NCBI RefSeq assembly: GCF_019933155.2 | Contig: NZ_CP082944.1 | Location: 1,490,001-1,554,000, forward strand | Reading direction: 5' to 3' | Length of the DNA stretch: 64,000 nucleotides | Origin: Metabacillus dongyingensis | GTDB taxonomy: Bacteria > Bacillota > Bacilli > Bacillales > Bacillaceae | The notes under the pieces: generated by a model | What the model was told of the DNA's origin: nothing | The model's input: only the letters and a program-made list of their open reading frames with translations | Databases searched by the model: none | Part shown: piece after piece, positions 1 through 15,766 of the stretch | Position numbering within the stretch: position 1 is the stretch's first letter | How the letters are laid out: each line of letters opens with the position of its first letter | Translations under genes and position numbers: made by a program

Positions 1-510
1 TTATCATTGGAACAAAATATATTAAATAGAAGTAATTACATAAAAATTGCCAATAACATACAGGCTGATTATTACTATTACTTCAATACTTTTGAAACTA
101 GAGGAAAATTAATAGCTTCTTTAGTAAGTGTCTATATGGATAATACTAAGAAAATACCTAATGAAAGCGCTTTACAGCTGAGGGTTATCTTCGAAAATGA
201 GTTATCAAATGACTCATTTGGTATTTTGTTTTTTAGAGAAATTATGAATGCAATTAATTATGAAGGTCTTTTTTCAATTAACGTTATGCGCTCAAGATTC
301 AGGTTAAGTGTTTCAAAGAAATTGGACAATCCAATTGAAAGATTCAACGTAATTTTGATTAAACTTATAGAGCATAAAATAGTTCAGATTACAAAGATTG
401 GTAGTAAAGAATATGGGCAATTTTCAAAAGTATTTTATGAAGAGTCTAATATTCACGAGGAGCTAAACATTATATATGCATATCTAAAAAAACGTATAAA
501 GGAGAGTTAG
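1..510 (+). CDS. Uncharacterised protein, C-terminal part; first visible gene of the restriction operon
   Basis: The frame is open to the first base of the window, so the true start probably lies upstream. A TTG at 7 could be read as a start, but no ribosome site can be seen before it. About 168 residues are visible: mixed helical, rich in Asn/Ile/Lys, with no signal peptide, membrane segment or nucleotide-binding motif that I recognise. It is followed 3 bp later by the DptF-like ATPase gene, so the two are almost certainly co-transcribed. Position suggests an accessory or dnd-associated subunit of the phosphorothioate-linked restriction module, but that is inference from context only. Confidence 0.6.
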   Translation, partial: LSLEQNILNRSNYIKIANNIQADYYYYFNTFETRGKLIASLVSVYMDNTKKIPNESALQLRVIFENELSNDSFGILFFREIMNAINYEGLFSINVMRSRFRLSVSKKLDNPIERFNVILIKLIEHKIVQITKIGSKEYGQFSKVFYEESNIHEELNIIYAYLKKRIKES

Positions 511-513
511 CTT

Positions 514-2202
514 TTGAACGGTAATCCATTTGTAGACTATTTAGATCAATTTAACGTATTGTCTCCTAATCATTCAAAGATTTATGATGAATACTCATAT
601 GATAAAGGTGAAAAATCATATACTTTTAAAATTGAAACAAAAGTAGAAGATTATTTAATTAATATTCTAAAAAAATCTGGACAAAGTTTTATTTTAACTG
701 GTAATGCAGGCGATGGAAAGACCCGCCTATGTCGATCTATTTTTAATTACTTTAGTAGTGAAGATTTAAAAAATTGGCCTAATTCAGGTATTCGCGAGGT
801 TTCAACGGAACATGGCACATTGAGAATTGTGAAAGACCTTTCTGAACTAAAAGAGGATAAGATCTTTGAGGAATTGTTAAGACTACAAGAGTATATTATG
901 AATGATCATAAAGATCGCGTTTATTATTTAATTGCTGCAAACGAGGGAAAGCTAACAAAGTTTTTATCGCAAAAAAGTGAATTATCACACCTAAAAGAAC
1001 AAGTTAAATTACGTTTTAAAGATAGTATTAATAACAATAATGTATTTAATATCATTAACCTTATTGATGTCACTTCTTCAATTTATGTAGAAAAGGTCCT
1101 CGAAGAGTGGAATAAAGAAAAGAATTGGGTGCCATGTAATTCTTGTCCTAAAATAAATACATGTATTATTAATTTAAACCATAAAAAAACTTCTAAAATT
1201 GATGTCAAAAATAGACTAGTTGAACAATATAGATTGTTAGATTTTTTAAGTACACATATAACAATGCGTGAAATGTTGATTCATATCAGCTATATTCTAA
1301 CAGGCGGCTATAAGTGTACTGATATAATCAATGGAAATTATAATGAACTGAAACTTCAAATTAACAAACCGTATTACCAAAATTTTTACGGACATGAGAT
1401 TGAACACGAAGCATTTTCAGAGATGAGAGCATTAAAACTTTTCAGAGAATTAGATCCTGGATCAAACTCGAATTCAAATATTGATGATTTTATACTTAAT
1501 GGTGATATTAGTGGGAACGAAATACTTGAAGAATATCATTTAAATCTTTTCAATAATGATCTTGATCTTTACTTAGGTTACTTCAAAAAACGTTTGGAAA
1601 TTTATAGAGACCATAACAAAGAAAGTAATGACAAATTAATTGAAGAGTGGATATCAAAGCTTAGAAGGAAATTTTATTTCGAATTTCCTCAAGAAGATTT
1701 GTTTAATAGAAAAAGTTTAATTCCTTTTCAATATTTTGAAGAGTATAGCTTACTATTTGAAAGTGGTTTAAAACAAGCCCAAGTTAAAAAAGATCTAATA
1801 AATGGTCTTAATCGAGCATTTTCCAAAAGGCTAGTATTAGCGAACTCTCCTCTTTATGCAACATCAGAAAATTTAATGATTCATTCATCTTATTCAGCAA
1901 ATCAAGTGAAATTAATTGAAGATAAAAACAGAGAAGACGTAGATCATATACCATCAAAATTCAGTCTAATTGTGAATGACAATAATGTATTACCTATGGA
2001 TTTACATGTATTTGAATATTTAAAGCGTTTAAGTTCTGGTGATACTCATAATATTTTAAGGGAAGATGTTGAAATATTATTAGATACTTTTAAAAATGAA
2101 ATAATAAAGACTAGTAAACCAGACCAATATATTCTTAACGTTTTGCGTGCAGATAAAGACAGAGGATTATATGTCCAAGATGAGATTGAAATCTTTGATT
2201 GA
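514..2202 (+). CDS. dptF: DptF/SspF-like P-loop ATPase of phosphorothioation-dependent restriction
   Basis: This 562-residue protein has a Walker A motif, GNAGDGKT, with the Lys near residue 69. A cysteine cluster CNSCPKINTC near residues 208-217 looks like a zinc knuckle. Length, Walker A and position as the first of three genes ending in a giant FtsK-type protein match DptF of DptFGH restriction modules (SspF in SspFGH). Members of these modules attack DNA lacking phosphorothioate marks. The start is TTG with AAAGGAG about 9 bp upstream, 3 bp after the previous stop. The next gene starts 14 bp downstream. Assignment rests on architecture and synteny; the exact family letter is less certain than the system type. 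Confidence 0.65.
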   Translation: MNGNPFVDYLDQFNVLSPNHSKIYDEYSYDKGEKSYTFKIETKVEDYLINILKKSGQSFILTGNAGDGKTRLCRSIFNYFSSEDLKNWPNSGIREVSTEHGTLRIVKDLSELKEDKIFEELLRLQEYIMNDHKDRVYYLIAANEGKLTKFLSQKSELSHLKEQVKLRFKDSINNNNVFNIINLIDVTSSIYVEKVLEEWNKEKNWVPCNSCPKINTCIINLNHKKTSKIDVKNRLVEQYRLLDFLSTHITMREMLIHISYILTGGYKCTDIINGNYNELKLQINKPYYQNFYGHEIEHEAFSEMRALKLFRELDPGSNSNSNIDDFILNGDISGNEILEEYHLNLFNNDLDLYLGYFKKRLEIYRDHNKESNDKLIEEWISKLRRKFYFEFPQEDLFNRKSLIPFQYFEEYSLLFESGLKQAQVKKDLINGLNRAFSKRLVLANSPLYATSENLMIHSSYSANQVKLIEDKNREDVDHIPSKFSLIVNDNNVLPMDLHVFEYLKRLSSGDTHNILREDVEILLDTFKNEIIKTSKPDQYILNVLRADKDRGLYVQDEIEIFD

Positions 2203-2216
2203 GGGAGAGGAATAAA

Positions 2217-3776
2217 GTGAAAAATTTGGATGATTTTTCTTCAAAACTTTCTGCTAAAATATGGGGACATCGTTTTAAAGACGGTCAACGTGGTCCTGAG
2301 TATGTTTTAGAGTTTCTAAATGTGCTATTTGGTACTAACTATGCTTTAGATGCAGATGGTTATAACAGAAATAAGGCGGAAAATTTAAGAAAGTTTATTT
2401 TTGAAGGAGTTAAAGAAGGTAGCAAGAGAGACACTGCTAAATTAAAAGATGAACAAAAAAGGATATTATATGAAAAAATTTCCAACGAGAATAAGGTAGA
2501 AGTTATAAGAGAATTCTTTAGGAATTTAGAAGTACCATTAGTAGACGGTAGAGGTAAGGAAGCAGATCGTTCTTGGTATGCTCGTTCACTATACCCATTA
2601 CACGAAAGCTTATTATTTTTTGAATTACGTGTGAAAAGTGGTAGTCCGGCATCTTATGAAAGAAATTTCTTTGCACGAGGTGGAGAACTATATTACTTAA
2701 TGATTTCATATGGAACTGAAAAAAATCCAAAATTAAGAAATGAAATTGAAAGTCGTTTCAAAGAATTATTAACAAAGAATAACTCAATTGGGAAAATAGT
2801 TGATTCTATTCAAAGTGCGTTAGGCGATTCAAAAAATACTGATGTTACATATCCATTAAAACAATCAATAAATAGCAAAGAATACCCCCACCTTCCACTG
2901 ACAGAATCTGATCTTTTTGACTCATTTGCAATAGAACTTAATGATGTTTTATCACTAGATATTGATACGTATGACATGTTTAAATTACTTATTAGTTTAA
3001 CTTGTTTTCAATTAATGAGATATATGTACGAACAATCTAAAATTGAAGAAAGTTATCAAATTCAATACTTTTTCGATTGCTTAGATGGTAAAAACGAACA
3101 AATTCAAAAACTATCATCAAAAACATTTAAAAACAATGAGTTATTAGTAAAAAATAAATTTGAACATTACTTTAATGAGCAATTCCATGAACTCATTGGA
3201 AATGAGAAAAATGTAAAAACAAATCTTTCTATGTGGAAAGAAAATCCAGAAGAGTTCGTTAATATAATGAATTTACAAAAGCTCCAATCAAGGAAAAAAA
3301 GAGTAATTAATACTTTAGCAAAATGTAATACTTATGAAGATGTAACATCAAAACTATTTAACGTAGTAAACGAAGTGATATCAGATTCTCTAAAACGTCA
3401 TCAATTATCTATAATACGAACTTTAGCGAGAGATGGGGGAATAGGTAATTTTAAGTCCGGATCTAATTATCGTTACATTATGACAGATGATTTTCTACAA
3501 ACTCTAGTATTTATAAATGTTAGGCCTAATGAATCAATAGAATTTAGTGATTTTATTTCACGATTATATAATAGTTATGGGTTTGTAATAGGGGAAGTTC
3601 AAGCACGAAAAAGTGGGCTTTATAAGGAATCTAAGTTAAACATTAGTTATTATCAAAAAAATGAGCTAGCACTTAGAGAAAAACTTAGGAAAAATGGTTT
3701 GTTAGTAGAATATTCAGACGCGACTGCAATGATTCATAATCCATACGATTTAGCGGAAGGTGTGGCTATAGTATGA
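2217..3776 (+). CDS. dptG: DptG/SspG-like protein of the restriction module
   Basis: A soluble protein of about 519 residues with no obvious P-loop, signal peptide or membrane span. I place it as the DptG/SspG counterpart mainly because it sits between the DptF-like ATPase and the FtsK-type DptH-like protein. I cannot name a catalytic motif. A stretch around residues 115-165 is rich in aromatic and charged residues (DRSWYARSLYPLHESLLFFELR begins it in part; RNFFARGGE follows) and looks like a conserved core. The start is chosen as GTG at 2217, because GGGAGAGG lies just upstream; a TTG at 2199 overlaps the previous stop and has no ribosome site. Its stop overlaps the next ATG (ATGA), indicating translational coupling. 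Confidence 0.5.
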   Translation: MKNLDDFSSKLSAKIWGHRFKDGQRGPEYVLEFLNVLFGTNYALDADGYNRNKAENLRKFIFEGVKEGSKRDTAKLKDEQKRILYEKISNENKVEVIREFFRNLEVPLVDGRGKEADRSWYARSLYPLHESLLFFELRVKSGSPASYERNFFARGGELYYLMISYGTEKNPKLRNEIESRFKELLTKNNSIGKIVDSIQSALGDSKNTDVTYPLKQSINSKEYPHLPLTESDLFDSFAIELNDVLSLDIDTYDMFKLLISLTCFQLMRYMYEQSKIEESYQIQYFFDCLDGKNEQIQKLSSKTFKNNELLVKNKFEHYFNEQFHELIGNEKNVKTNLSMWKENPEEFVNIMNLQKLQSRKKRVINTLAKCNTYEDVTSKLFNVVNEVISDSLKRHQLSIIRTLARDGGIGNFKSGSNYRYIMTDDFLQTLVFINVRPNESIEFSDFISRLYNSYGFVIGEVQARKSGLYKESKLNISYYQKNELALREKLRKNGLLVEYSDATAMIHNPYDLAEGVAIV

Positions 3777-6700
3777 AAAGTGATAAACTTTTAGCTTTAT
3801 GGATTAACAGATTAATAGTTGATCATTTTAAAGCTCAGAAAAAAGATTTTACTGAAAAACTATTTATTAAAATTACAGGCTTAACAAATAATAATATAGA
3901 AGAACTACTCATTCAAACAAGAAAAAATATGACAACTTTTAAGGAATATTACGATCCCATTATAAGAACTGTTAAAAATATAGAGGGTTTTGAAGAATTC
4001 TCTTTTAGAGACTATGAAACAAGTACTTGGTTAAGAAATAACACTAAATATAACCAAGCTTTTATCCTAATAATTAATGATCTTACACCGGAAGGTCAGA
4101 GTCTTGAAAATCTTTTTACTATTGATGAGTCTTCCTTATTAACAGGGTTAGGATTAAGTTCATTATATAATGTACTATCTGAAAGCAGCAAAGTTGCAGC
4201 GGATGAAATTGAGCATATTGAAACTTTTATGGAGATGTATAAAAGTATTTCTGAACCGCAATTAATGAGTATTCTAAATTTTATTACTCATATATTAAAT
4301 GATCAGGGACCTTCTGTAGTAGAAAAAATTCAAAAAAATCTTCCTTATTTGAACTTGTTTTCAGACAGTAAACTAAAAATTAATATATTGGAAAGTTCTC
4401 GTTTGAAAAGGAATTATCTATTAGCTAATTTACAAATAAAAGATTCAGATCAAGAAAAAATACAAAATAACTTATATTCATTTATTGATAAGGAAGAGTT
4501 AAATCAATGGCCTGATGAGATATGGCAAACAAAATCAGTTGATGAGTTAACTAATGAAATAATAGGATTCTTAAATCAAAATTCTACTTCTTTTTTATTT
4601 AACGATTTTGATTTTGTTCAGAAGATTACAGAATTTAAAAATGGACCATCTACAATAAAAAGTGAGATTGAAGAGGTATATATTAATAACCAGTCTACAT
4701 TTGATGAAAATGGTAAGCGTGAGTTTGAGGAAGGGCTAAATGAAGTAGTTTGTGGAAATAACCCTGAAGCAATACAAGATTTCGTTGAAGAATTTGAAGA
4801 TTTATTAAATCAGAAAAAAGGTTTGGTAAAAAAACTTAATCGTTTAATTGAAAAACTAAGAAATCCATCAATTTATGAAGATATTAATCACGCTTTAATG
4901 AGAGAGGTTTTTTCTCTTATCGAAGAAGAGAGCAATAACTCAAAGATTTCTGATTCAACCTTTGAATTAGAAATTGTTACCCCGAAATCACCAGAGAACG
5001 TTGTAAGTATACTGAAAGTTTATTTAACGAATATAAAAAGCGTTATACCAAGAATAAACTTTATTATTGATTCGTTACCTGAAGTTGATAATTCAGTAAA
5101 GGATACTGATGTGAATTTTAAATTAACGCATAAGATTGAAGATGCCGATGTATCAAATAAGAAATTTAAGGTTACAACTTTTAACAACTTGAACTTATAT
5201 TCCTTCAGCCAGTTAGTAAAAGATAATAAAGTACCATACTTAGTTAATTATGCTGAAAATGAAATAGAGTTAATAGATATCATGACAAATGTTCAAGATA
5301 GAGTTAAGCATTATTTAAGTTCAGGTACACCTAATATAAAAGAGAATTTAGATAAATTCAAACTTTTTTTAGAGCAGTACACTGAAATACTACACTCTAT
5401 ATTTGAAAACGGAGTCTTTTCCATTGATTATAAAAGCTTAGAAATAATCTTAGAAAAAATCCTGGAAAATTTATATTCATCATCTATTGTTTCACAACAA
5501 ATCTTACAATGTATAAATTTAATTGGGGCTACAGATTTCTATGATAATAAAAAAGGAGAATCTGGAATACCAGTTTCCAGAATCTTAACAATTTTAAATC
5601 CTATAAGGTTATTAGCTTATATTAAAAGATATGAAGAAATCTCTTTAATTATTGATGAATGGCTAATAAATGCTAGTAAGAACATATTAGAAGTAGAAAA
5701 ACTAGATGAGTACCTTGAATTTATGTTAGGAAAATCAAAACATTTAGCTCCTAGATACTTTTCAAGCTACGGAGATGAATCTTTCTTAATTGAAAAATCT
5801 GAAGTTTTAGGTGAAGGCTCATTTATTTTAAATACTAAACCGGCTAATAATACAGATTACATTTCGAATGAATTATCTGAAGAACTAGTTAAAACTACAA
5901 AAAATTATTTAGAAGTTTATCCTTACGCAAAAGATGGGATGGATATTCTTCTTCTTCATTGCCATAGCAGTGATGTAATTATTAAATGTGTAGACTCCTT
6001 ATTCTCCAAAACTAAGATTAAGAAGTTGAGATTGACAGTACACAGTGAATCTGCAGCTAAATTACACAATCAACTAAATAAGTGGCTGCAACAAAAGGAA
6101 GAGTACACCAAACCTGATATCGGAAGTAAGTTCCCTAAATTGGAAATCGGTGTAATATCGGGCCGTAGTGCAAGTGAGATATTTACCCAGATAGATAAAA
6201 AAATGTCTGACTCTGATTTAGTTATTTTAGCAGACTACTTTGGACAAAGTAATCAGATAAGATATAACTTTGAACGAATAAAACCTAAACTATCTTTAAA
6301 TTGGTTTGAGACTTTATATAAAGAACCACTTAAAGATGACGAAGCTGTAAAAAGAATTAGTTATGTTAGTGAACACTTACCTAAAGTTTTGCAATTATAT
6401 TATCAAATGCAATATATAGTTCAAACTAATGCAATGCCAGATAAAGATGAAATTAACGTGCTTAAAAACATTATTTCTATTACAAATATTAATCATAGTT
6501 CTTTAATTGATTTTATGCACAGGAAATTTAATTGGGTAATGATCTTAGATAGGTATTTAGACAAGACCCTTTTAACTAAAACTTCTTCAGAGGCTAATAT
6601 TATTCAATATAAACCTAAAGCTGCTGGCCAAAATAGTGAGTTTAAATTAATTGTTTCTTCATCGAAATATATTAAAAAAATCAGTGAGAAAACTTCAGAT

Positions 6701-8869
6701 TTTGCATATTATGATCGACTTCATCGGAAATTAGTATCTATTTTAAAGAATGAGAATATTTCTAGAGATATTGTTATTGATTCTGTAAATAAAGTAAAAG
6801 ATATTTCAGGTTCATTAGTGTTAAAGGTAATAGGTAGAGGGAAATATGCACATGAGATGTTAGCAACATACTTATCAACAATAAAAAGATCCAATCAATC
6901 AGTCGATAAATTGCAAATTTGGTCTATTTGTGATGATTTACCTTGGTTTGCAAATAATAAAAGACGCCCTGATTTGGTATTAACCACGATTTGCAAAGAG
7001 CAAAATAATATAAAAATAAATTTTGAATTGATTGAATTGAAATTTATTAACCACAATATTTTTGATAAAGAAAGATTCGACGCATTAAAACAAGTTAAGA
7101 GTGGATTAAATCTATATAATAAATTGTTTTCTTTATCAAAGACACAACTTGACACAAATTATTGGAGATCTGAACTAGTTCAATATCTTGTTGAAAGAAG
7201 TGCATATCCTCCAAATCATGTTCATTTAATCAAAGATTTGCAACATACAGATCTGGAGAATATTGAAGTTACAATTAGCGGCAGTGTTGATGCTTATTGT
7301 TATACTTCTAATTTAACAAACTATAATTTTGAAAAAGTAGACGATGGAATATTTAAAGAAGAACTAGAACCTAGTATAAACAATTATATGTATGCAAGGT
7401 CTTACATTCTTAAGGAATTACAAACAGATGAGGCAGTAATCCCGAATTATGAAGATGTTGACACTTTATACTCATTACAAGAATCTCTTAAACAATCTAT
7501 AGGAACTATCTCAAGAAATGATGAAACTGAAACAGAAGAAGTTGATAAGGCAGTAGATTTTTCTAATGAACAGAAAATAAGTACCGATGATTTTTCAGAG
7601 ATAAATAATATTGAAGATTCTAAGAATATTGGTGATTTTGACAATGTAGTTAGTAAATCTAATGAAGAGAATATAGGTGAACTTTATACACTTGAAGAAA
7701 ATAATATGGATTTCCCAGAAGCAATCGCTCTTGCAGGTTTAAGCTTCAATTACGAAGATATACAAGGTAATAGTGAAGAGCTGAAAGATATGTATATTAG
7801 AAAATTAAAATATAGTTTTAATCAAAATGGTATACATATTTCTATCAAAGATTCAATAATAGGATCAAGTGTAATCCGATTAATAATTTCTTTACCGCAT
7901 GACTTATCCGCAAATAAAATATTATCTAAAACTAAGGATATACAATTATGGTTAGGTCTTAATTCAGAACCGCATATTTTTATTAATAAACAAGGTATGA
8001 ATATTGACATCATTCGAGAGACACCAGAAACTATTTATTTTGAAAAGTTCATGCAATTAACTAGAAACCAAATTCAAAATGAAGTTTCTAATGTAAATTT
8101 AATAGCTCCACTAGGTCTAGACCCTCTAAATAACGTGATATATATGGATTTTTCAAGTTCAATGTCACCTCATCTATTAACTGGAGGTACTACTGGAAGC
8201 GGTAAAAGTGTAACGTTAAATTCAATTATTTTAGGTATGATGTGCTTATATTCACCTGAGCAATTACAATTTATCTTTATAGATCCTAAAAAGGTAGAAT
8301 TTACTATATATCAAGAAAAAAAACATACAATGAATGTTATTACAGAACTAAATGAATCAGTGAATATTTTAAATGAATTAGTAAATGAGATGGAATCAAG
8401 ATATACAAAATTCGCAAAAGAAGGGGTGACTAATCTAGAAGAATATATTACAGAAGTAAAAATACAATTGCCTAGGTTAGTACTAGTATTTGATGAATTT
8501 GCAGATTTTATGACTCAAGATGGGGACATGAAAAAACAAGTGGAAAATTCAATCTTAAGATTAGGTCAAAAAGCTCGAGCAGCTGGTATCCATTTGATTA
8601 TTTGTACACAAAATCCTCGTGCGGACATAATAAATACAAACATTAGAAATAATTTAGGAGCACGCTTGGCTTTAAGAGCAGCAGATGCTAATGCTTCTAA
8701 TATTATACTAGATGAATCAGGAGCAGAAAATTTGGCAGGAAAAGGAGATTTCCTTGCTAAAATACACGGCAACATTGATAGAGGAAAAAGTCCATTTCTT
8801 ACCACTCAAGTTAGAAGAGCTTTATTAAATTATTTTAAAAAAGTTGAACAACATTCACATCAAAATTAG
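3773..8869 (+). CDS. dptH: DptH/SspH-like giant protein with C-terminal FtsK/HerA-type ATPase
   Basis: At 1698 residues this is the largest protein in the window. The C-terminal part holds an FtsK/SpoIIIE-like ATPase: Walker A GGTTGSGKS with Lys near residue 1478, and Walker B LVFDEFADF near 1573, followed by RLGQKARAAGIHLI, typical of DNA-pumping motors. The N-terminal 1200 residues are unfamiliar, and an acidic linker (about 1220-1320) joins the halves. DptH of DNA phosphorothioation-dependent restriction has this size and layout and acts with DptF and DptG. The ATG overlaps the stop of the previous gene. A hairpin follows the stop, so this is the last gene of the restriction operon. Confidence 0.7.
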   Translation: MKSDKLLALWINRLIVDHFKAQKKDFTEKLFIKITGLTNNNIEELLIQTRKNMTTFKEYYDPIIRTVKNIEGFEEFSFRDYETSTWLRNNTKYNQAFILIINDLTPEGQSLENLFTIDESSLLTGLGLSSLYNVLSESSKVAADEIEHIETFMEMYKSISEPQLMSILNFITHILNDQGPSVVEKIQKNLPYLNLFSDSKLKINILESSRLKRNYLLANLQIKDSDQEKIQNNLYSFIDKEELNQWPDEIWQTKSVDELTNEIIGFLNQNSTSFLFNDFDFVQKITEFKNGPSTIKSEIEEVYINNQSTFDENGKREFEEGLNEVVCGNNPEAIQDFVEEFEDLLNQKKGLVKKLNRLIEKLRNPSIYEDINHALMREVFSLIEEESNNSKISDSTFELEIVTPKSPENVVSILKVYLTNIKSVIPRINFIIDSLPEVDNSVKDTDVNFKLTHKIEDADVSNKKFKVTTFNNLNLYSFSQLVKDNKVPYLVNYAENEIELIDIMTNVQDRVKHYLSSGTPNIKENLDKFKLFLEQYTEILHSIFENGVFSIDYKSLEIILEKILENLYSSSIVSQQILQCINLIGATDFYDNKKGESGIPVSRILTILNPIRLLAYIKRYEEISLIIDEWLINASKNILEVEKLDEYLEFMLGKSKHLAPRYFSSYGDESFLIEKSEVLGEGSFILNTKPANNTDYISNELSEELVKTTKNYLEVYPYAKDGMDILLLHCHSSDVIIKCVDSLFSKTKIKKLRLTVHSESAAKLHNQLNKWLQQKEEYTKPDIGSKFPKLEIGVISGRSASEIFTQIDKKMSDSDLVILADYFGQSNQIRYNFERIKPKLSLNWFETLYKEPLKDDEAVKRISYVSEHLPKVLQLYYQMQYIVQTNAMPDKDEINVLKNIISITNINHSSLIDFMHRKFNWVMILDRYLDKTLLTKTSSEANIIQYKPKAAGQNSEFKLIVSSSKYIKKISEKTSDFAYYDRLHRKLVSILKNENISRDIVIDSVNKVKDISGSLVLKVIGRGKYAHEMLATYLSTIKRSNQSVDKLQIWSICDDLPWFANNKRRPDLVLTTICKEQNNIKINFELIELKFINHNIFDKERFDALKQVKSGLNLYNKLFSLSKTQLDTNYWRSELVQYLVERSAYPPNHVHLIKDLQHTDLENIEVTISGSVDAYCYTSNLTNYNFEKVDDGIFKEELEPSINNYMYARSYILKELQTDEAVIPNYEDVDTLYSLQESLKQSIGTISRNDETETEEVDKAVDFSNEQKISTDDFSEINNIEDSKNIGDFDNVVSKSNEENIGELYTLEENNMDFPEAIALAGLSFNYEDIQGNSEELKDMYIRKLKYSFNQNGIHISIKDSIIGSSVIRLIISLPHDLSANKILSKTKDIQLWLGLNSEPHIFINKQGMNIDIIRETPETIYFEKFMQLTRNQIQNEVSNVNLIAPLGLDPLNNVIYMDFSSSMSPHLLTGGTTGSGKSVTLNSIILGMMCLYSPEQLQFIFIDPKKVEFTIYQEKKHTMNVITELNESVNILNELVNEMESRYTKFAKEGVTNLEEYITEVKIQLPRLVLVFDEFADFMTQDGDMKKQVENSILRLGQKARAAGIHLIICTQNPRADIINTNIRNNLGARLALRAADANASNIILDESGAENLAGKGDFLAKIHGNIDRGKSPFLTTQVRRALLNYFKKVEQHSHQN

Positions 8870-8885
8870 CATCATATATGATATT

Positions 8886-8915
8886 GCATCTAGAATTTGT
8901 CTAGATGCCTTCTTT
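8886..8915 (+). terminator. Hairpin between restriction and modification operons
   Basis: GCATCTAGA at 8886-8894 pairs perfectly with TCTAGATGC at 8900-8908 across a 5-base loop, followed by CTTCTTTT. It lies 17 bp after the dptH-like stop. The T-run is imperfect, so it may be a partial terminator rather than a full one. Confidence 0.6.
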
Positions 8916-8974
8916 TGCAATTAATTTTTCACTGGATATAAACTACCAGTAGAAATAGAAGGGTGTAATTACCT

Positions 8975-9850
8975 ATGGGATACGGTCAACATCAAAGTTT
9001 CTATCTAAGAGATAGATGGCTCAATAAGGCAATAAAACATTTAAAAGATAATGAAAGATTATTTTATGACAAAGATGCTTTTGAGGAAATGGGATTAGGT
9101 AAAAATATGGTTCAATCTCTACGATATTGGGTAGTTGCTACAGGTGTAGTTCATGAGAAACTAAATATTGAAAGAAAAAAAATACATCATATAACACCAC
9201 TAGGGCAACTAATTTTTAAATATGACAAGTTCTTGAAATATAATGATACGGCTTCAATTTTACACTATGAAATGGTTAATAAAAGAGAGCCGAGCACTTC
9301 TTGGTTTTGGTTTTTCAATATTTTAAACGAAACATTAATCAGTAGAGATAATCTTCAAGACGAATTAATTGAATGGGTTAGTAAAAATGAAAATAAAGGT
9401 ATCTCTGATCGTTCATTAAAAAGAGATATAGATTGTTTAATAAAGTTGTATACAGCTGGACAAAATTCTAATGACCCTGAGGAAGTAATACAAAGTCCTC
9501 TAAATAAATTAGGATTATTGGAAGAAAAAAGAGGCTTAATAATTAAACGAAGCTTATCCGAGGATGATATAGGTTTATCGGCACTCATGTATATTCTTTT
9601 AGATTTTAAAAGTAAATTTGATACAGAAAATATTAGCGTTGATGATCTAGTACAAAAAAGCGGGCTTTGGGGAAAAGTATTTAATATGAGTAGAACATCA
9701 ATAGTAAATGCTTTAAACAAATTAAATAACCATAATAAATTTCCTTTAAAATTCATTAGAACTAATAATTTGGATTTAATTAGAATTCCTGATGTTTCTC
9801 CATTAGAGTTTTTAGAGTATGAGTATCTTTTAAAAAATGGGGTTAAATAG
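8975..9850 (+). CDS. sspB: SspB: DUF4007 protein of single-strand DNA phosphorothioation
   Basis: A 291-residue protein with the N-terminal pattern of DUF4007 proteins (GYGQHQSFYLRDRWLNK, then LGLGKNM-like spacing and SLRYWVVATG). In the SspABCD pathway SspB is the DUF4007 component, reported as a nickase that opens the strand for sulfur insertion. Here it is the first gene of a tight operon with a large P-loop ATPase and a PAPS-reductase-like protein, exactly the B-C-D order. ATG at 8975 has AGAAGGGTG about 10 bp upstream. The stop TAG is directly followed by the ATG of the next gene. High confidence in family; the precise enzymatic role is from published homologues. Confidence 0.85.
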   Translation: MGYGQHQSFYLRDRWLNKAIKHLKDNERLFYDKDAFEEMGLGKNMVQSLRYWVVATGVVHEKLNIERKKIHHITPLGQLIFKYDKFLKYNDTASILHYEMVNKREPSTSWFWFFNILNETLISRDNLQDELIEWVSKNENKGISDRSLKRDIDCLIKLYTAGQNSNDPEEVIQSPLNKLGLLEEKRGLIIKRSLSEDDIGLSALMYILLDFKSKFDTENISVDDLVQKSGLWGKVFNMSRTSIVNALNKLNNHNKFPLKFIRTNNLDLIRIPDVSPLEFLEYEYLLKNGVK

Positions 9851-12800
9851 ATGAAGGTTTTAGATAGTAATTTTAAAACAAGTGTAAATGTTAAGTTTGA
9901 CTTAGGTAAAAAAGAATTCGTAAAGAGGTACCTGCCTACACCATCCCATGCGGAATCACTGCTTGGTTTATTACAAGGATTTAACTCTAAAAAATCTTTA
10001 AAATCACATATGATCATAGGCCCATATGGAACCGGAAAGTCTCTTATAGCAACAATAGTAGGAGGCCTCGTCTCTAAGAAAATCGATAACTCTACTTTCA
10101 ATGTCTTAGTGAGAAAGTATGAAAAAGTTCATGAAGGTATCTATACAGAACTAAATAAAATAAAAGATAATGATATAACGTATTTAACTGTTGCTTTAAA
10201 TGGGAATGAAGGTCGTTTTAGATATGCAATCTTAGATTCAATAATTCGTACATTAAATGAAAATAAAGTAGATATAATTTTACCAGGCCAATACGGTAAG
10301 ATCATACAAACGATTGATTTATGGAAACAGGAATTTCCTCAAACCTATAGAGAATTTAAAAAGAAATTAAAAGAAGAAAAGAAAGATTTGCAACTTTGGA
10401 GATTAGAAATACTAAATAGAAATAAAGATGAAATAGAATGGTTTATGCAGGTATATCCAACTCTTTCAGCAGGTGCTGAATTTTTCATTGACTTTAAGGA
10501 AGATTTTATAGGACAGCTGTCATTTGTCTTACAAGAATTAAAAAAACTAAATATTGGACTTTTCATTGTATATGATGAATTCGGAAGAATGCTTCAAACA
10601 TTAGATTCTCTACAAGTACATGAAACAATGCAAGACATACAGGATATGGCTGAGTTAATTGATCACACATCACTTAATCTGCATTTTTTATTAATTACTC
10701 ATAAAAATCTGTCTCAATATTTTAACCTGTTAAATGATGAGTATAAGAAAGAATTTAATCGTATAGAAAAAAGATTTAGAAGTTACTATGTAGAAAGTGA
10801 TAGTTCAACTTTTTTAAGGATTGCAGAAAGCTTTATTCAGGATGGCTATCCAACAAAAGTAGTGAATAATGGTATCGAGAAAATTGTAAATAGTTTGCGT
10901 AAATACCCTTTGTTTCCTGAATTAAACCAGCAGGAAATAGAAAAAATCGTAATTGAAGGAACTTATCCAATTCATCCAGTAACTCTTTTTTTGTTGCCAT
11001 ATTTATCAAGCGCATTTGGGCAAAATCAGAGAACACTTTTTACATTCTTAGAAAGTAACGAGACAAGTGGGCTTCAAAATCATATGAATAAAACAGGTAA
11101 ATACTATCTTCCCTCCGAATTATTTGAGTATTTTTTTCCTGCTATTCACAATATTGATACTAGTAATGAAGATTTTAGAGAGTTGAAAATTTATAAGAAG
11201 ATAATAAATAAAACTCCAGAAATAAATAATGATAAGGAGAAATCTTCAATATTAAAATTAATTACTCTCTGGCAGTTAGCAGGTTTAAATTCTAAGTTTA
11301 AACTTGATTCTGAGTTTCTTGAATTTTCATTAGGAATACGTAATAAAGTATTAGGACAACTATTACTAGATTTATCTATGATTAAAGCAATTAGATATAA
11401 TCGTGTTTTGGGATATTGGGAATTAATGGAGGGGAGTTCATTCTTCCTTGATGAATTAATAAAAGATAAACTTCCTACTATTTCATATAACAATCGCAAT
11501 AAAATTGTTGTATTAGATAAATGTCTAGCTAAAAAGTTTTACTTGTCAAATGATTATAATGACACTAAAAGCATGACTAGATATGCAGAAGTTCAATTCA
11601 TATTTAGCTCTGAGATATTAGATACTACTATCGATTATGAAGAATTACGAAATAGTAAAAACTCAGATATGATTGTATTCTATATATTATTAGAGTCTCA
11701 ACAAGACTATGAAAAATTATTAAGTAACCCACACCTAATGAATAATGATTATTGTCTGTTTTGTATATCAAATAATTTATTCACGTCAATAGAACTCCAA
11801 ACACTTGAATATTTAGCGATTGAAAATCTATTACTAGATCAAGAATTAATGAGCCAGGATAAGAACTTAAAAGATGAGTTGAATTTAAAGAAAGAGGATT
11901 TAGTTTTTATTTTTAATGATTTCTTAAACACATATTATTCTTATGATAATAAAACTACTTGGCTTTATAAAAATAGAGTTATTAACATAGAAAGTGAAAT
12001 TGGATTAGAAAAGATTTTAAGTCAAACTATGTTTGAAAAATACCCTAATACAATTGAAGTAAGGAATGATTCTTTTAATAGAAGAAAAATCAACAATACT
12101 CAGAGAAATGCTGGATATAAAGTATTAGATCATATTATTAATGATTACTCAAAACAAGACATTGGTATTGAAGGGCAAGGTCCTGATTATCTTATCTATG
12201 CAACGATTTTTAAGAATAATAAGTTTTATCCAAACTCATTAGATAAAATTCAATCTGATGATATAAAAAAGTTAAGAAAAGAACTAATAAATTACTTAGA
12301 GCAAAACAACTCAGGAAATTTAATAGACTTTGTAAAGATTATGAGTAATGAGCCTTTTGGGATAAGAGAACCACTAATTCCAATCTTTTTAGTGTCTCTT
12401 TTAAGAGACAAGTGGGATCAACTAATGTTTTATAGAAACGATATGTACGTATCTGGAATTAATGGCGAGAAACTATACAAAATGGTTGAAGAAGCTAGTG
12501 AATATTCATTTGTTTATTATAATTTCAAAGAAGAATTTGAAGAATTTTTTGTCGGAATAGAAAGAATGTTTAATGAGTTTGAAAATGGTTTAGTGAAAAA
12601 TAAACCTAGAATAATTAGAATTAATAATGCTATCTTGACTTGGTTAAGGAATTTACCTAGAGTAACTCAAATCACAGACAACCTAAATAGTGATTTGCTC
12701 TGGTTAAAAAATAACATTAAGAAAAGTGAAATTAATCCGCAGGAAAGCTTAACTGAACTTTACTCAAGATACTCTAATAATTTGTCAGAATTAAAAAATC

Positions 12801-13294
12801 ATAGACTACAATTAGAAAGTTATTTTAATGAGTTTAAATTAGATTTGAAGAAATTCATTTTAACTTTATTTAATGTGAATAGTTTTGAAGAACTTTATAA
12901 ACGGGTTAAAGAGCAAACTCCAGAAATAAAAAAGAAAAATAAACTAGCCAATTCAATTATAAAAATAAATGATAAACATAAATGGATAGATGCTTTTGCA
13001 ATAAGTTTTTTAGGCATTGAAATTGAAGCGTGGTCAGACACAACTACAGAAATGTTTAAAAGGCAATTAAAAGTAGAATTCGATTCTATTAAGCAAACAG
13101 ATCAAATAAATGATAAAAATATCCAAATTATATATAATGGTAATGTAAAATATATTAATACAGTTGAACTATCAACAAAGTCCCAGACTATTTACAATAA
13201 TGTTTCAAGAATGATAAATAATGCTGGAAGAAATGTACCTAAAGAAGAAGTTGAATATATGATATATAAATTAATGGAAGATTTTGTAGAGTAA
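9851..13294 (+). CDS. sspC: SspC: large P-loop ATPase of DNA phosphorothioation
   Basis: A 1147-residue ATPase. Walker A is GPYGTGKSL with Lys near residue 63, and a Walker B-like IVYDEFGRML lies near 240. The rest is helical with coiled-coil-like stretches toward the C-terminus. In SspBCD modules the middle gene encodes the ATPase SspC, which works with SspB and SspD in single-strand phosphorothioate modification. The gene abuts sspB with no intergenic bases, and sspD starts 14 bp after it. BREX-type and other phage-defence ATPases of similar size share this Walker layout, so the assignment relies on its neighbours. Confidence 0.8.
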   Translation: MKVLDSNFKTSVNVKFDLGKKEFVKRYLPTPSHAESLLGLLQGFNSKKSLKSHMIIGPYGTGKSLIATIVGGLVSKKIDNSTFNVLVRKYEKVHEGIYTELNKIKDNDITYLTVALNGNEGRFRYAILDSIIRTLNENKVDIILPGQYGKIIQTIDLWKQEFPQTYREFKKKLKEEKKDLQLWRLEILNRNKDEIEWFMQVYPTLSAGAEFFIDFKEDFIGQLSFVLQELKKLNIGLFIVYDEFGRMLQTLDSLQVHETMQDIQDMAELIDHTSLNLHFLLITHKNLSQYFNLLNDEYKKEFNRIEKRFRSYYVESDSSTFLRIAESFIQDGYPTKVVNNGIEKIVNSLRKYPLFPELNQQEIEKIVIEGTYPIHPVTLFLLPYLSSAFGQNQRTLFTFLESNETSGLQNHMNKTGKYYLPSELFEYFFPAIHNIDTSNEDFRELKIYKKIINKTPEINNDKEKSSILKLITLWQLAGLNSKFKLDSEFLEFSLGIRNKVLGQLLLDLSMIKAIRYNRVLGYWELMEGSSFFLDELIKDKLPTISYNNRNKIVVLDKCLAKKFYLSNDYNDTKSMTRYAEVQFIFSSEILDTTIDYEELRNSKNSDMIVFYILLESQQDYEKLLSNPHLMNNDYCLFCISNNLFTSIELQTLEYLAIENLLLDQELMSQDKNLKDELNLKKEDLVFIFNDFLNTYYSYDNKTTWLYKNRVINIESEIGLEKILSQTMFEKYPNTIEVRNDSFNRRKINNTQRNAGYKVLDHIINDYSKQDIGIEGQGPDYLIYATIFKNNKFYPNSLDKIQSDDIKKLRKELINYLEQNNSGNLIDFVKIMSNEPFGIREPLIPIFLVSLLRDKWDQLMFYRNDMYVSGINGEKLYKMVEEASEYSFVYYNFKEEFEEFFVGIERMFNEFENGLVKNKPRIIRINNAILTWLRNLPRVTQITDNLNSDLLWLKNNIKKSEINPQESLTELYSRYSNNLSELKNHRLQLESYFNEFKLDLKKFILTLFNVNSFEELYKRVKEQTPEIKKKNKLANSIIKINDKHKWIDAFAISFLGIEIEAWSDTTTEMFKRQLKVEFDSIKQTDQINDKNIQIIYNGNVKYINTVELSTKSQTIYNNVSRMINNAGRNVPKEEVEYMIYKLMEDFVE

Positions 13295-13308
13295 GGCGGT
13301 GTTTTCTT

Positions 13309-14109
13309 ATGGAAAGAAAACAAGTACATGTAGCAATGTTTAGTGGTGGAGCAGCGAGTGCTTATGTTGCATATCAAATGGTGCAAACTCATGGAAAAGA
13401 GAACTGTATTTTATTTTTCACAAACACAATGTGGGAAGATGAAGATAACTATAGATTTATGGATGAAGTCGCAGATTATATAGGGTTAGAGATTACCGAG
13501 AGAGTAGATGGTCGTACCCCTGAAGAAGTGTTTTATGACTATCGTTTTCTGGGAAATTCTCGTTTAGCCAAATGTTCAGAAGAACTTAAAGTGTATCAAA
13601 CAATTGTATTTTTAGAAGAATTAAGAGACGTTCACAACTTAGAACCAATTCTTTATTTTGGAATAGGTCCTCATGAAACACACAGGTCTGACAATTTAAA
13701 GGAGTTTTATCTACATAGACCTGTAGAGCCAATTGAAACTAGATTTCCTATGATCGAAACATTTAGAGAAGACATTGATGCAAAAGCAATAATACAGAAT
13801 GAATGGGGTATTAAACTTCCAAGGATGTATGAATTAGGTTTTTCACATGCTAATTGTGGTGGCAGATGCGTGAGAGGCGGATTTCAGCATTACGCTCAGT
13901 TATACAAAATATGGCCTGATAGATATGCTTTACAAGAAGAGATGGAAGAAAACTTTCGTAAGCACTTTGAAAAGAATGTTTCAATACTTAAAAAAGAGGG
14001 TGGTCCCTTTACATTGAAACAATACAGACTTCAAATGGATGCTGAAGGTGTAGATAAATTTTTAAAAACCCAAGATGAAACTGTTCCTTGTGTATGTTCA
14101 TTTTCATAA
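13309..14109 (+). CDS. sspD: SspD: PAPS-reductase-like ATP pyrophosphatase of DNA phosphorothioation
   Basis: A 266-residue protein with a PP-loop ATP pyrophosphatase motif SGGAASA at residues 12-18, typical of PAPS reductases and of DndC/SspD, which activate DNA for sulfur transfer. Cysteines that could carry sulfur or a cluster occur at C-N-C-G-G-R-C near residues 183-188 and in the C-terminal VPCVCSFS. ATG at 13309 follows AAGGCGGTG. It is the last gene of the sspBCD operon and is followed by a strong terminator. No cysteine desulfurase gene (sspA) is nearby, so sulfur is presumably supplied by a desulfurase encoded elsewhere. Confidence 0.85.
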   Translation: MERKQVHVAMFSGGAASAYVAYQMVQTHGKENCILFFTNTMWEDEDNYRFMDEVADYIGLEITERVDGRTPEEVFYDYRFLGNSRLAKCSEELKVYQTIVFLEELRDVHNLEPILYFGIGPHETHRSDNLKEFYLHRPVEPIETRFPMIETFREDIDAKAIIQNEWGIKLPRMYELGFSHANCGGRCVRGGFQHYAQLYKIWPDRYALQEEMEENFRKHFEKNVSILKKEGGPFTLKQYRLQMDAEGVDKFLKTQDETVPCVCSFS

Positions 14110-14132
14110 AAGCTTTGATTTAGAGTCAAAAG

Positions 14133-14170
14133 ACTACTTTTAGAATTATTCTAAAAGTAGTTTTTTGTTT
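14133..14170 (+). terminator. Rho-independent terminator of sspBCD
   Basis: A perfect 13-bp stem (ACTACTTTTAGAA with its complement at 14149-14161) around a 3-base loop, followed by TTTTTTGTTT. It closes the modification operon. Confidence 0.9.
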
Positions 14171-14245
14171 ATAACAGAAATAAATAATACTTTCATTAAT
14201 TGGACAGAATATGTGGACAAGCTAAAAAAGATGAAGGTGTTATAA

Positions 14246-14656
14246 ATGTTAAATTTAAAAGCAGGTTTCTCATTAGTTCCTGGACAAAAGATAAGAATAT
14301 ATAGGAATTTACATAAAAATATTTTTTCAATACAAGACATTAAATTAAATAAGGTAATTGGATATGGAGAAGGTATTCTAGTATCTAATGTAAAAATGGT
14401 TGTCAGAAAAAGCGGTAGAGAATTGACACTGAAAACCGGAAATAAAAATGTACATGCCTTTATTGTAGGGGAGTTTAAAGGTCTTCACTATGATCCTATT
14501 CGTCATTCTAAACAAATTTATTATAATCCTTATGTTACTGATAATTTTATCTTACAAGATACCAATGAAGTAATAACTGAAGCTGAAAATTGCTTGTGCC
14601 TAAATATGAAGTGTTATGTATTTCAATATAACCATTACAGTAAGAGCATTATATAG
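14246..14656 (+). CDS. Small uncharacterised protein at the end of the defence island
   Basis: 136 residues with no membrane span. It opens with a beta-rich stretch containing KIRIYRNLHKNIFSI, then GRELTLKTGNKNVHAF and a tyrosine-rich NPYVTDNF segment. I recall similar YRNLHK...KNVHA small proteins from phages and mobile elements, but cannot name the family. GAAGGTG precedes the ATG. It stands alone between two terminators, with its own short upstream region. AT-rich composition matches the sspBCD island rather than the genes after 15.2 kb. Function unknown; a defence accessory is only a guess. Confidence 0.7.
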   Translation: MLNLKAGFSLVPGQKIRIYRNLHKNIFSIQDIKLNKVIGYGEGILVSNVKMVVRKSGRELTLKTGNKNVHAFIVGEFKGLHYDPIRHSKQIYYNPYVTDNFILQDTNEVITEAENCLCLNMKCYVFQYNHYSKSII

Positions 14657-14668
14657 GAAACAATATAT

Positions 14669-14697
14669 ACCGTTCATATTTGGACGGTCTTTTTATT
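14669..14697 (+). terminator. Terminator after the 136-aa gene
   Basis: ACCGTTC at 14669-14675 pairs with GGACGGT at 14682-14688 (one G-T pair), followed by CTTTTTATTT. Confidence 0.8.
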
Positions 14698-14773
14698 TCA
14701 AATAGCTATTAATGAAATTTCCAGTTACTATTAAATTAGTGATAAGTAGTTTCAAAAATGAAAGGGGTTTATA

Positions 14774-15067
14774 ATGCTTTCAGTCTCAGAAAAACTATCA
14801 ATCTTTAAAAGTTATTCATTACTAATTGAAAGAAAACACAAAGATAACATTAGGCTCTCATACAAACATCCCACTGCTACAAAACGTCAGAAAACTGTAA
14901 TCTCTGAATTTTCTACTAAAACAGGAAATGGTTATGTATGTGGAAAGTATCTTTCAGATGTTCATTCTTATTTAGTAGATAAAAGAGGATGGATTAATAT
15001 TAAGAATTTTAATGAAGAAAATTTAAGAAAAATAATTGAAGAGTCTATGAAGTCATTAGAAAAATGA
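14774..15067 (+). CDS. Small basic protein of unknown function
   Basis: 97 residues, rich in Lys, Ser and Glu, with no membrane span or recognised motif. AAAGGGG lies about 6 bp before the ATG, giving a credible start. The N-terminal half contains a run of basic residues (KHPTATKRQK) that could contact nucleic acid; the C-terminal half is predicted helical. It is the last gene with island-like AT-rich composition. I do not recognise the family. Confidence 0.6.
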   Translation: MLSVSEKLSIFKSYSLLIERKHKDNIRLSYKHPTATKRQKTVISEFSTKTGNGYVCGKYLSDVHSYLVDKRGWINIKNFNEENLRKIIEESMKSLEK

Positions 15068-15182
15068 AATTTGTACAAAAAGATAGGATGGTGAAATTGA
15101 ATAATACAATCATATTTCCACACAATATCAGGGGGTAGAAGTATTCACTATTAAGTAATCCCGCCTGTTTGTTTTGAATAGG

Positions 15183-15218
15183 AAAAAGAGACTGCTTATA
15201 AGTACGAAACAGTCTCTT
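15183..15218 (-). terminator. Terminator of the yjcK-like gene
   Basis: AGAGACTG at 15187-15194 pairs with CAGTCTCT at 15210-15217. Read on the minus strand it ends in CTCTTTTTCC, 9 bp after the GNAT stop. Confidence 0.85.
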
Positions 15219-15226
15219 CCCAATTA

Positions 15227-15766
15227 TCAATCATCCGGATTCAAAATCGCCAAAACCTCATGATCCTCCCACTTCCCATTAATCTTCACATTCTTTCTCG
15301 CAAGTCCTTCTTTATGAAAGCCTGCTTTCTCGAGTACTCGAATAGAACCGATGTTGTGAGGCATAACGCCGGCTTCTATACGGTGCAGTTTGAGTTCTTC
15401 AAAGGCATACTTAATAATCAGTTTGACTGCATGGGTTGTGTAGCCTTTTCCGTTGTGAGCCTTGTCCAGAAAATAGCCTAGGACAGCATTTTGGAGTGAA
15501 CTCCGCATGACTTGGAAGAGGCTGATGGTGCCGAGTAAACGATTGTCCTCATTCAGGAAGATGCCGAATTGATACTCGGTGTCTTCTTTGCTTTTTTGTT
15601 CGTATTCTTGGATCATGGTGCGCTGAGTTTCCAGGGTGTAGAAATCTGGTGTGCGGATCATGGAGAATTGTTCAAAGAACTCGCGGTTATTGAGCTGAAG
15701 CTGAAGTCTTGCTTCTGCATCCTCCACTGTAAAAGGTCTTATATGTATGGTTTCATTTTTTAACAT
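15227..15766 (-). CDS. GNAT N-acetyltransferase, RimJ/RimL-like (YjcK type)
   Basis: A 179-residue single-domain GNAT protein. The acetyl-CoA region is seen as YFLDKAHNGKGYTTHAVKLII, followed by the characteristic LHRIEAGVMPHNIGSIRVLEKAGF segment of ribosomal-protein-alanine acetyltransferases of the RimJ/RimL/YjcK group. Length matches that group. The ATG at 15766 is preferred over the TTG one codon upstream; GAGGGG lies about 9 bp upstream. It is a single-gene unit with its own terminator and marks the return to normal chromosome composition. Confidence 0.85.
   Translation of the reverse strand: MLKNETIHIRPFTVEDAEARLQLQLNNREFFEQFSMIRTPDFYTLETQRTMIQEYEQKSKEDTEYQFGIFLNEDNRLLGTISLFQVMRSSLQNAVLGYFLDKAHNGKGYTTHAVKLIIKYAFEELKLHRIEAGVMPHNIGSIRVLEKAGFHKEGLARKNVKINGKWEDHEVLAILNPDD

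Follow-up and report, generated by a model that had tools for sequence, protein, structure and literature searches.

How a cell can keep a DNA-cutting complex that is toxic unless the cell's own DNA bears a protective mark, and what kind of complex this is, are the questions raised by a gene cluster at the left end of a 64,000-nucleotide stretch of the Metabacillus dongyingensis genome (contig NZ_CP082944.1, positions 1,490,001 to 1,554,000; the window hereafter). Our bioinformatic analysis confirms, by profile matches, that the cluster belongs to the published SspBCD-SspFGH phosphorothioate defence, a kind already known; it probably puts sulfur tags on the cell's own DNA and cuts phage DNA that lacks them. 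What appears to be new, as judged from sequence comparison, is a homology link between SspFGH and DndFGH, a defined nuclease motif in SspH, a conserved leader element ahead of sspB for which no report was found, and three unusual genes upstream of sspF.

A preliminary description of this DNA had placed six Ssp genes at 514-8869 and 8975-14109. Six large co-directional open reading frames (ORFs) indeed lie there, and the assignment was borne out by PADLOC, in which all six proteins matched the profiles of SspF, SspG and SspH or of SspB, SspC and SspD. The latter three are encoded together in one operon, and SspB should be the DNA-binding nickase subunit of single-strand phosphorothioation, as its published homologues are. 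In SspD the SGGxxS motif and C183, C187, C261 and C263 are kept in 14/14. Its Pfam score lies just below the cut-off (21.0 vs 22.5), and the match to its own PADLOC model is weak (2.8e-11), which counts against the assignment. No sspA or other desulfurase gene is present near the cluster. Elsewhere the genome encodes SufS (L113), two proteins over the IscS-subfamily cut-off (L114 and L116) and a NifS-like protein below the cut-offs (L115); IscS can replace SspA according to the available text of PMC8092258. We propose that SspD would obtain its sulfur from such a housekeeping IscS-type desulfurase.

The SspABCD-SspFGH system of Vibrio anguillarum FF-93, so far as the available text of PMC8092258 describes it, has the same six genes, an IscS-supplied desulfurase function and no SspE. 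The present cluster differs from it in that the restriction operon comes first and the modification operon second, in three extra genes upstream of sspF, and in a conserved hairpin-dyad before sspB. With SspABCD-SspE it has the modification module SspBCD in common, whereas an SspE-type DUF262 protein (PF03235) gave no match in this genome, the control search being positive in 8/14 genomes. DUF4007, a PAPS reductase and a BrxC-like ATPase also occur in BREX (bacteriophage exclusion) type 4, as described in the part of PMC12839542 at hand; the present cluster differs in having SspFGH, and PglZ and BrxL are not among its family matches, no separate search for them having been made.

The second module poses the question of descent. 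SspFGH and DndFGH (DptFGH) are stated to have no sequence homology in the available text of PMC8092258, or no significant identity (PMC10470545), while the preliminary description had called the restriction genes DptFGH/SspFGH-type. The SspFGH half of that label stands by the profiles. A direct Dpt family match does not exist: NCBIfam gave no DptF/G/H match among the cluster proteins, TIGR03236 matched nothing in this genome, and Dpt family membership on NCBIfam grounds was rejected. The relationship emerges from profile-profile comparison of F and H and from the predicted structure of G. SspF, a P-loop NTPase with the Walker A sequence TGNAGDGKT and a conserved cysteine cluster (C208, C211 and C217), aligns with DptF in hhalign at 96.7% (E 4e-10), and SspH aligns with DptH at 98.0% with the D...ExK...Q residues at similar positions, while 12 mismatched or control profile pairs all remained at 4.5% or less. 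The predicted model of SspG has DndG (7exx) as its best and only strong PDB match. These results point to SspF and SspH as remote homologues of DptF/DndF and DptH/DndH at the profile level, and, through the model, to SspG as a possible homologue of DndG/DptG with a predicted DndG fold; SspG is presumably the DNA-binding or recognition subunit.

Our analysis of SspH suggests a methyltransferase-like fold (residues ~690-968), a PD-(D/E)XK motif (D1067, E1088, K1090 and Q1107) and a C-terminal FtsK/HerA translocase, whose best FtsK stretch in Pfam covers residues 1438-1615. The nuclease residues are kept in 98% of 56 sequences; the exception in the alignment shown is L083, which is not part of the set of 52. 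Several results weigh against the homology. SspG and DptG reach only 12.2% in the profile-profile comparison, neither the SspG model nor the SspH-part model had a Foldseek match that reached E 0.001 or better, and of the rows listed for the latter by Foldseek and VIA most are methyltransferases and none is a nuclease structure. SspH is accordingly called a nuclease from its motif, from predicted secondary structure and from its profile alignment with DptH. PDB sequence searches with the SspH-part alignment, the SspG alignment and SspC returned nothing meaningful.

The low G-G score and the published denials of sequence homology or significant identity (PMC8092258, available text; PMC10470545) would suit an independent restriction complex that converged with DndFGH on common parts, namely a P-loop, a winged helix-turn-helix, a restriction endonuclease and FtsK. 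Such convergence is very improbable in our judgement: most fetched DptFGH loci have the same F-G-H order and broadly similar sizes, the H-H match includes the D...ExK...Q residues at similar positions, DndG is the only strong structural match of SspG, and the domain order of SspH is that described for DndH (methyltransferase-like, nuclease, FtsK) in the available text of PMC10853773. We therefore favour common ancestry of SspFGH and DndFGH. The two resemble each other in gene order, in a P-loop F protein with a Cys cluster, in the predicted G fold (7exx; PMC10853773, available text) and in an H protein carrying a methyltransferase-like fold, a nuclease motif and FtsK; they differ in the low sequence identity, the missing direct family match and the partners, which are SspBCD here and not DndBCDE. 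No DndB-E family occurs among the Pfam, NCBIfam and PADLOC matches of the cluster, the neighbours being SspBCD. In the fetched loci DptG is shorter than SspG; it is split in L131, and DptH is broken in L126.

The 105-base gap between sspH and sspB bears on the question of how the two modules are kept in balance. It contains a terminator-like hairpin, whose stem sequence is conserved between genera, and an operator-like dyad that begins, in our locus, 30 nucleotides after the start of the hairpin 3' arm CTAGATG (Table 1). In the counts that follow, as in the trees below, L019-L024 were excluded as copies of L038, L033, L042, L037, L055 and L062; one L059 fragment has no start motif. Dyads of the TGG-N10-CCA type occur in 21/41 regions upstream of DUF4007 genes. 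In the count over 40 regions, which L029 entered by a second, distant DUF4007 gene (the proper L029 sspB has the dyad, hence 21/41), CTGG-N10-CCAG was found in 17 and in none at all other spacings from 0 to 25, and TGG-N10-CCA in 20, against 0-2 at other spacings and a mean of 0.64 (maximum 4) in shuffles that preserved single-base content only. Across loci the dyad stands 37-60 nucleotides 5' of the sspB start. The dyad follows the hairpin 3' arm at 29 or 30 nucleotides in 13/13 loci, while in the same loci the distances from the 5' arm (42-51) and from the dyad to the start codon (39-59) are both variable; L029, which these 13 do not include, departs from the rule with 72 nucleotides and a TATAAT in between. 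A composite hairpin-dyad pattern gave seven matches in 7/397 genomes of the order, all seven just upstream of DUF4007, and its reversed control none. Its single match in viral contigs (L183, beside phage-like structural ORFs) was counted as chance, no sspB being seen among the ORFs listed around it. Rfam gave chance-level matches only, and among the papers listed in searches on SspB/DUF4007 and on sspBCD promoters none reported such an element.

Other results limit the generality of the element. The composite pattern presets the spacing and so tests place, not spacing, and 12/19 DUF4007 genomes have no match to it. With identical loci matched by contig, the dyad precedes the main sspB in 16 of these 19 genomes and is absent in two (G189 and G716), G143 being unreadable; it is also absent from Paenibacillus and Exiguobacterium/Kurthia-type loci. 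In L042 the dyad is kept although SspB and SspC of this locus cluster with those of a locus that has no dyad, which speaks against reading of the dyad by its cognate SspB alone. In L157 a second dyad-like sequence, TCTGGAGACGGTCACCAGA, lies ~100 bases before the first sspB dyad.

The preliminary description had given each operon its own terminator. Hairpins do follow sspH and sspD, and eight terminator-like hairpins were found in 1-15300 against 3.6 expected from shuffles, including those at 8886-8908 and 14133-14161. The sspH-side hairpin is not solely the sspH terminator, an assignment that was dropped because the hairpin also stands before sspB in loci with no sspH upstream. The dyad precedes sspB in loci that begin with this gene (L025-L028 and L033) and in others whose 1.5 kb upstream showed no sspH (L158, L160, L163, L164 and L165); in L158, L164 and L165 both elements are present, and their genomes (G194, G009 and G273) have no match to the SspF model. 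These loci bear on the proposal that the CATCTAG hairpin is a shared sspH terminator and the dyad the operator of some host regulator, neither being tied to defence. The terminator-like shape after sspH would fit this, as would the fact that no regulator gene recurs among the listed upstream neighbours. Set against it, besides the loci that have both elements without sspH, are the 29-30 nucleotide spacing in 13/13 and the lack of clear enrichment of ACTGG-N10-CCAGT in this genome, where six sites against three for the reversed control are near chance; the hairpin pattern has one copy. We consider this explanation distinctly unlikely.

A further possibility is that hairpin and dyad form one RNA element, a transcript-read attenuator, in place of a terminator followed by a DNA operator. 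The hairpin helix is 98.6% paired, with an outer pair that is G-C in 10 and A-U in 6, and L158 and L165 have a TATAAT upstream of the hairpin, which may therefore be transcribed as a leader. The dyad, however, has its inner pair broken in 11/16, whereas TGG and CCA are invariant in the 20/20 found by the pattern (with A6 in 19 and T15 in 18); because letters are kept while the inner pair is broken, it is apparently read as sequence rather than as an RNA hairpin. Covariation of the whole leader structure is modest (13/500 shuffles reach its score), the leader window has a fold z of only -1.92, no Rfam family matches, and in L033, L034, L036 and L160 a TATAAT-like hexamer starts 9-10 nucleotides before the dyad, as for an operator at a promoter. 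An RNA element is rather unlikely on this evidence.

We therefore favour a terminator followed by a DNA operator, through which the modification genes are probably under their own control; the separate regulation of the two operons suggested earlier is plausible in the light of the conserved element. The dyad is presumably bound by a protein, and in the simplest scheme this protein would stop RNA polymerase, either at the hairpin or at a promoter. The terminator 3' arm would fix the pause site of the polymerase and the protein on the dyad would act as a roadblock; a protein bound 12-13 nucleotides ahead of the T run explains both the near-fixed 3'-arm spacing and the free loop length. Where a TATAAT-like hexamer precedes the dyad, the same protein would block initiation. 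Autoregulation by DndB is reportedly a precedent for such control. The published Ssp mark is C-ps-CA/TGG (PMC8092258, available text), and its identity with the TGG/CCA core of the dyad suggests that SspB or the mark itself is read. One elaboration is an epigenetic feedback switch, in which SspB or SspBC would occupy the dyad while it is unmarked, or once SspB is plentiful, and would block the polymerase at the terminator or, in loci that have no hairpin, at the promoter. If the published motif holds here, the dyad would carry the modification site of the system itself, CCA, on both strands, ~12-13 nucleotides ahead of the polymerase stop at the hairpin, and the mark state or the SspB level would set modification output against the toxic upstream SspFGH. 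We offer this version as a tentative and, on balance, unlikely one.

Taken as a whole, the cluster is very likely a phosphorothioate restriction-modification system of the SspBCD-SspFGH kind, with IscS-fed SspBCD marking host DNA, DndFGH-like SspFGH nicking unmarked DNA, and control at the leader. This reading draws directly on gene identity, on the DndFGH homology by profile and fold, on the conserved catalytic residues and on the conserved leader element; activity of the cluster and assembly of an SspFGH complex are presumed by analogy. SspD, together with SspB (nicking and DNA recognition) and SspC (ATPase), would set single-strand phosphorothioate marks on host DNA. DndFGH is a 2:2:1 complex that nicks DNA coupled to translocation and whose ATPase is repressed by the marks, as given in the available text of PMC11662687, from which we infer a like mechanism for SspFGH: it would translocate on unmarked DNA by the SspH FtsK motor, the PD-(D/E)XK domain would nick this DNA, and host marks would restrain it. 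In V. anguillarum FF-93, SspFGH attacks DNA that bears no marks, becomes toxic when these are missing and blocks phage replication (PMC8092258, available text). A cutting module that does harm in the absence of marks calls for balanced expression.

How the modules are combined in nature was judged from other loci. The SspF model (PADLOC PDLC02796) matched 15/299 genomes of the order, and 275 stretches were confirmed in a scan of the GTDB contigs, the 80 best loci among them being retained; sspFGH accompanies sspBCD in 196/2678 strains according to the available text of PMC8092258. The position of the restriction genes 5' of the modification genes, noted in the preliminary description, is real and recurs in most mapped Bacillales loci, which read F-G-H-B-C on one strand. 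L033 and L025-L028 have the order B-C-D-F-G-H, and sspD lies on the opposite strand in L021, L024, L057 and L064. FastTree trees of F+G+H and of B+C for 39 loci, with C partly cut by locus ends, disagree, and each data set rejects the other's tree in approximately unbiased (AU) tests (p 5.8e-7 and 3.9e-66, from 2000 resamplings, too few according to the program). L042 has an FGH close to those of L040 and L041 and a B-C near that of L059; L034 and L036 are sisters in FGH and differ in B-C; the B-C of L028 is nearly that of L025, its FGH more distant. Different SspFGH and SspBCD therefore pair in nature, which is in line with the cross-acceptance of marks reported in the available text of PMC8092258 and suggests compatibility across types. 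In L029, a second, distant SspC-like and DUF4007-like pair lies at 5944-11041, between sspB-sspC-sspD and sspH. Distant SspF-like domains from several phyla end long ORFs in L079-L111 (many of 1200-1570 codons); many of these loci have no SspG or SspH detected and possibly represent other DndF-type systems.

Table 1. Features of the cluster in window coordinates; negative numbers lie 5' of the window start, and all cluster genes are on the + strand.
Feature	Position	Strand	Basis or remark
u74 (74 amino acids)	-1724 to -1500	+	
u302 (302 amino acids)	-1521 to -613	+	
u378 (378 amino acids)	-626 to 510 (L002:13374-14510); 3' part 1..510	+	Stop 3 bases before sspF start
sspF	514..2202	+	PADLOC SspF, E 1.1e-221
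sspG	2199..3776	+	PADLOC SspG, 5e-113
sspH	3773..8869	+	PADLOC SspH, 3.4e-106; Pfam FtsK, 1.7e-41
SspH putative PD-(D/E)XK catalytic core, D1067 to Q1107	6971..7093	+	Motif, alignment to DptH
Leader element 1, terminator-like hairpin	8886..8908	+	GCATCTAGA-loop-TCTAGATGC with T-rich tail
Leader element 2, operator-like dyad	8931..8950	+	ACTGG-N10-CCAGT (core TGG-N10-CCA)
sspB	8975..9850	+	PADLOC SspB, 4e-58; Pfam DUF4007, 2.5e-69
sspC	9851..13294	+	PADLOC SspC, 6.3e-102; BrxC-like ATPase, Walker A GPYGTGKS
sspD	13309..14109	+	PADLOC SspD, 2.8e-11; PAPS-reductase/ATP pyrophosphatase
Terminator-like hairpin and T tail after sspD	14133..14161	- in the scan	T run behind it on + too
Small Phage_L5_gp82-domain gene	14246..14656	+	Pfam; right end of insertion

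The cluster had also been called an island, and it does lie in an AT-rich insertion of 17.2 kb between mutT and a GNAT gene (window -1957 to 15223; L002 from about 12043). The genus sample comprised seven genomes including our own, and in the four others with close orthologues of mutT and of the far-side genes (G692, G691, G082 and G191; slots L144-L147) the insertion is missing at that place. DNA homology to the closest congener, G692, ends at window -1958 and restarts at 15224, its slot being ~1.8 kb with a single scanned ORF that has no Pfam match. The slots of G691 and G082 hold a PLD-like/ResIII/helicase protein of ~808 amino acids, with a MazG-like neighbour in G691 (scanned there), and that of G191 a T5orf172/MUG113 protein; the different cargo across the four congeners makes mutT-GNAT a possible defence hotspot. 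The G+C content is 0.235 in the three upstream genes, 0.285 in sspFGH, 0.275 in sspBC and 0.348 in sspD, against ~0.40 in the flanks. No integrase was noticed in the slot, and ARAGORN found no tRNA within the window. Horizontal acquisition of the cluster as an insertion belongs to the overall reading given above and shares its high likelihood. The Phage_L5_gp82-domain gene has no relative in the other loci mapped and is probably a passenger. Beyond mutT and outside the slot, a DUF3427-domain ORF (L002:10802-11443) is present in all four congeners.

The sspFGH operon starts ~1.7 kb 5' of the window, with three ORFs in overlapping frames, u74, u302 and u378, that lead into sspF. The frame of u378 is open for 378 codons, a length that 2000 simulations did not approach (127 at most), and it is therefore taken as a real gene; a good ribosome-binding site for sspF, as we read the sequence, lies within its 3' end. 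Searches of 5.8 billion proteins, 398 genomes of the phylum and viral contigs returned u378 only as itself, and PDB sequences gave none; u302 likewise has no relative but itself in the protein collection and none in viral contigs. Neither resembles the Ssp and Dpt family profiles (best 1.6%), and the DNA of the three genes has no match in plasmids. u74 has one relative (P0004; 78 amino acids, 88% identity) on a contig of 1201 bases. Since the homology breakpoints enclose these genes and their G+C is low, they came with, or into, the same insertion. Our guess is that they form a fast-evolving sensor or regulator of SspFGH. Their having no counterpart in the other loci mapped, and a G+C of 0.235 against 0.285 for sspFGH, would be natural for a separate small defence or toxin-antitoxin operon standing by chance before sspF; the overlapping or 3-base junctions, the sspF ribosome-binding site inside u378 and the common insertion speak for a tie to sspF, and we regard the case for a separate operon as evenly balanced.

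These findings would link two complexes of phosphorothioate restriction for which a lack of significant identity has been reported. With nuclease and motor residues of SspFGH indicated, the mechanisms published for DndFGH become testable in Ssp systems. The element before sspB may offer a handle on how a harmful cutter is held back relative to its protective mark, a question that concerns mobile restriction-modification systems in general.

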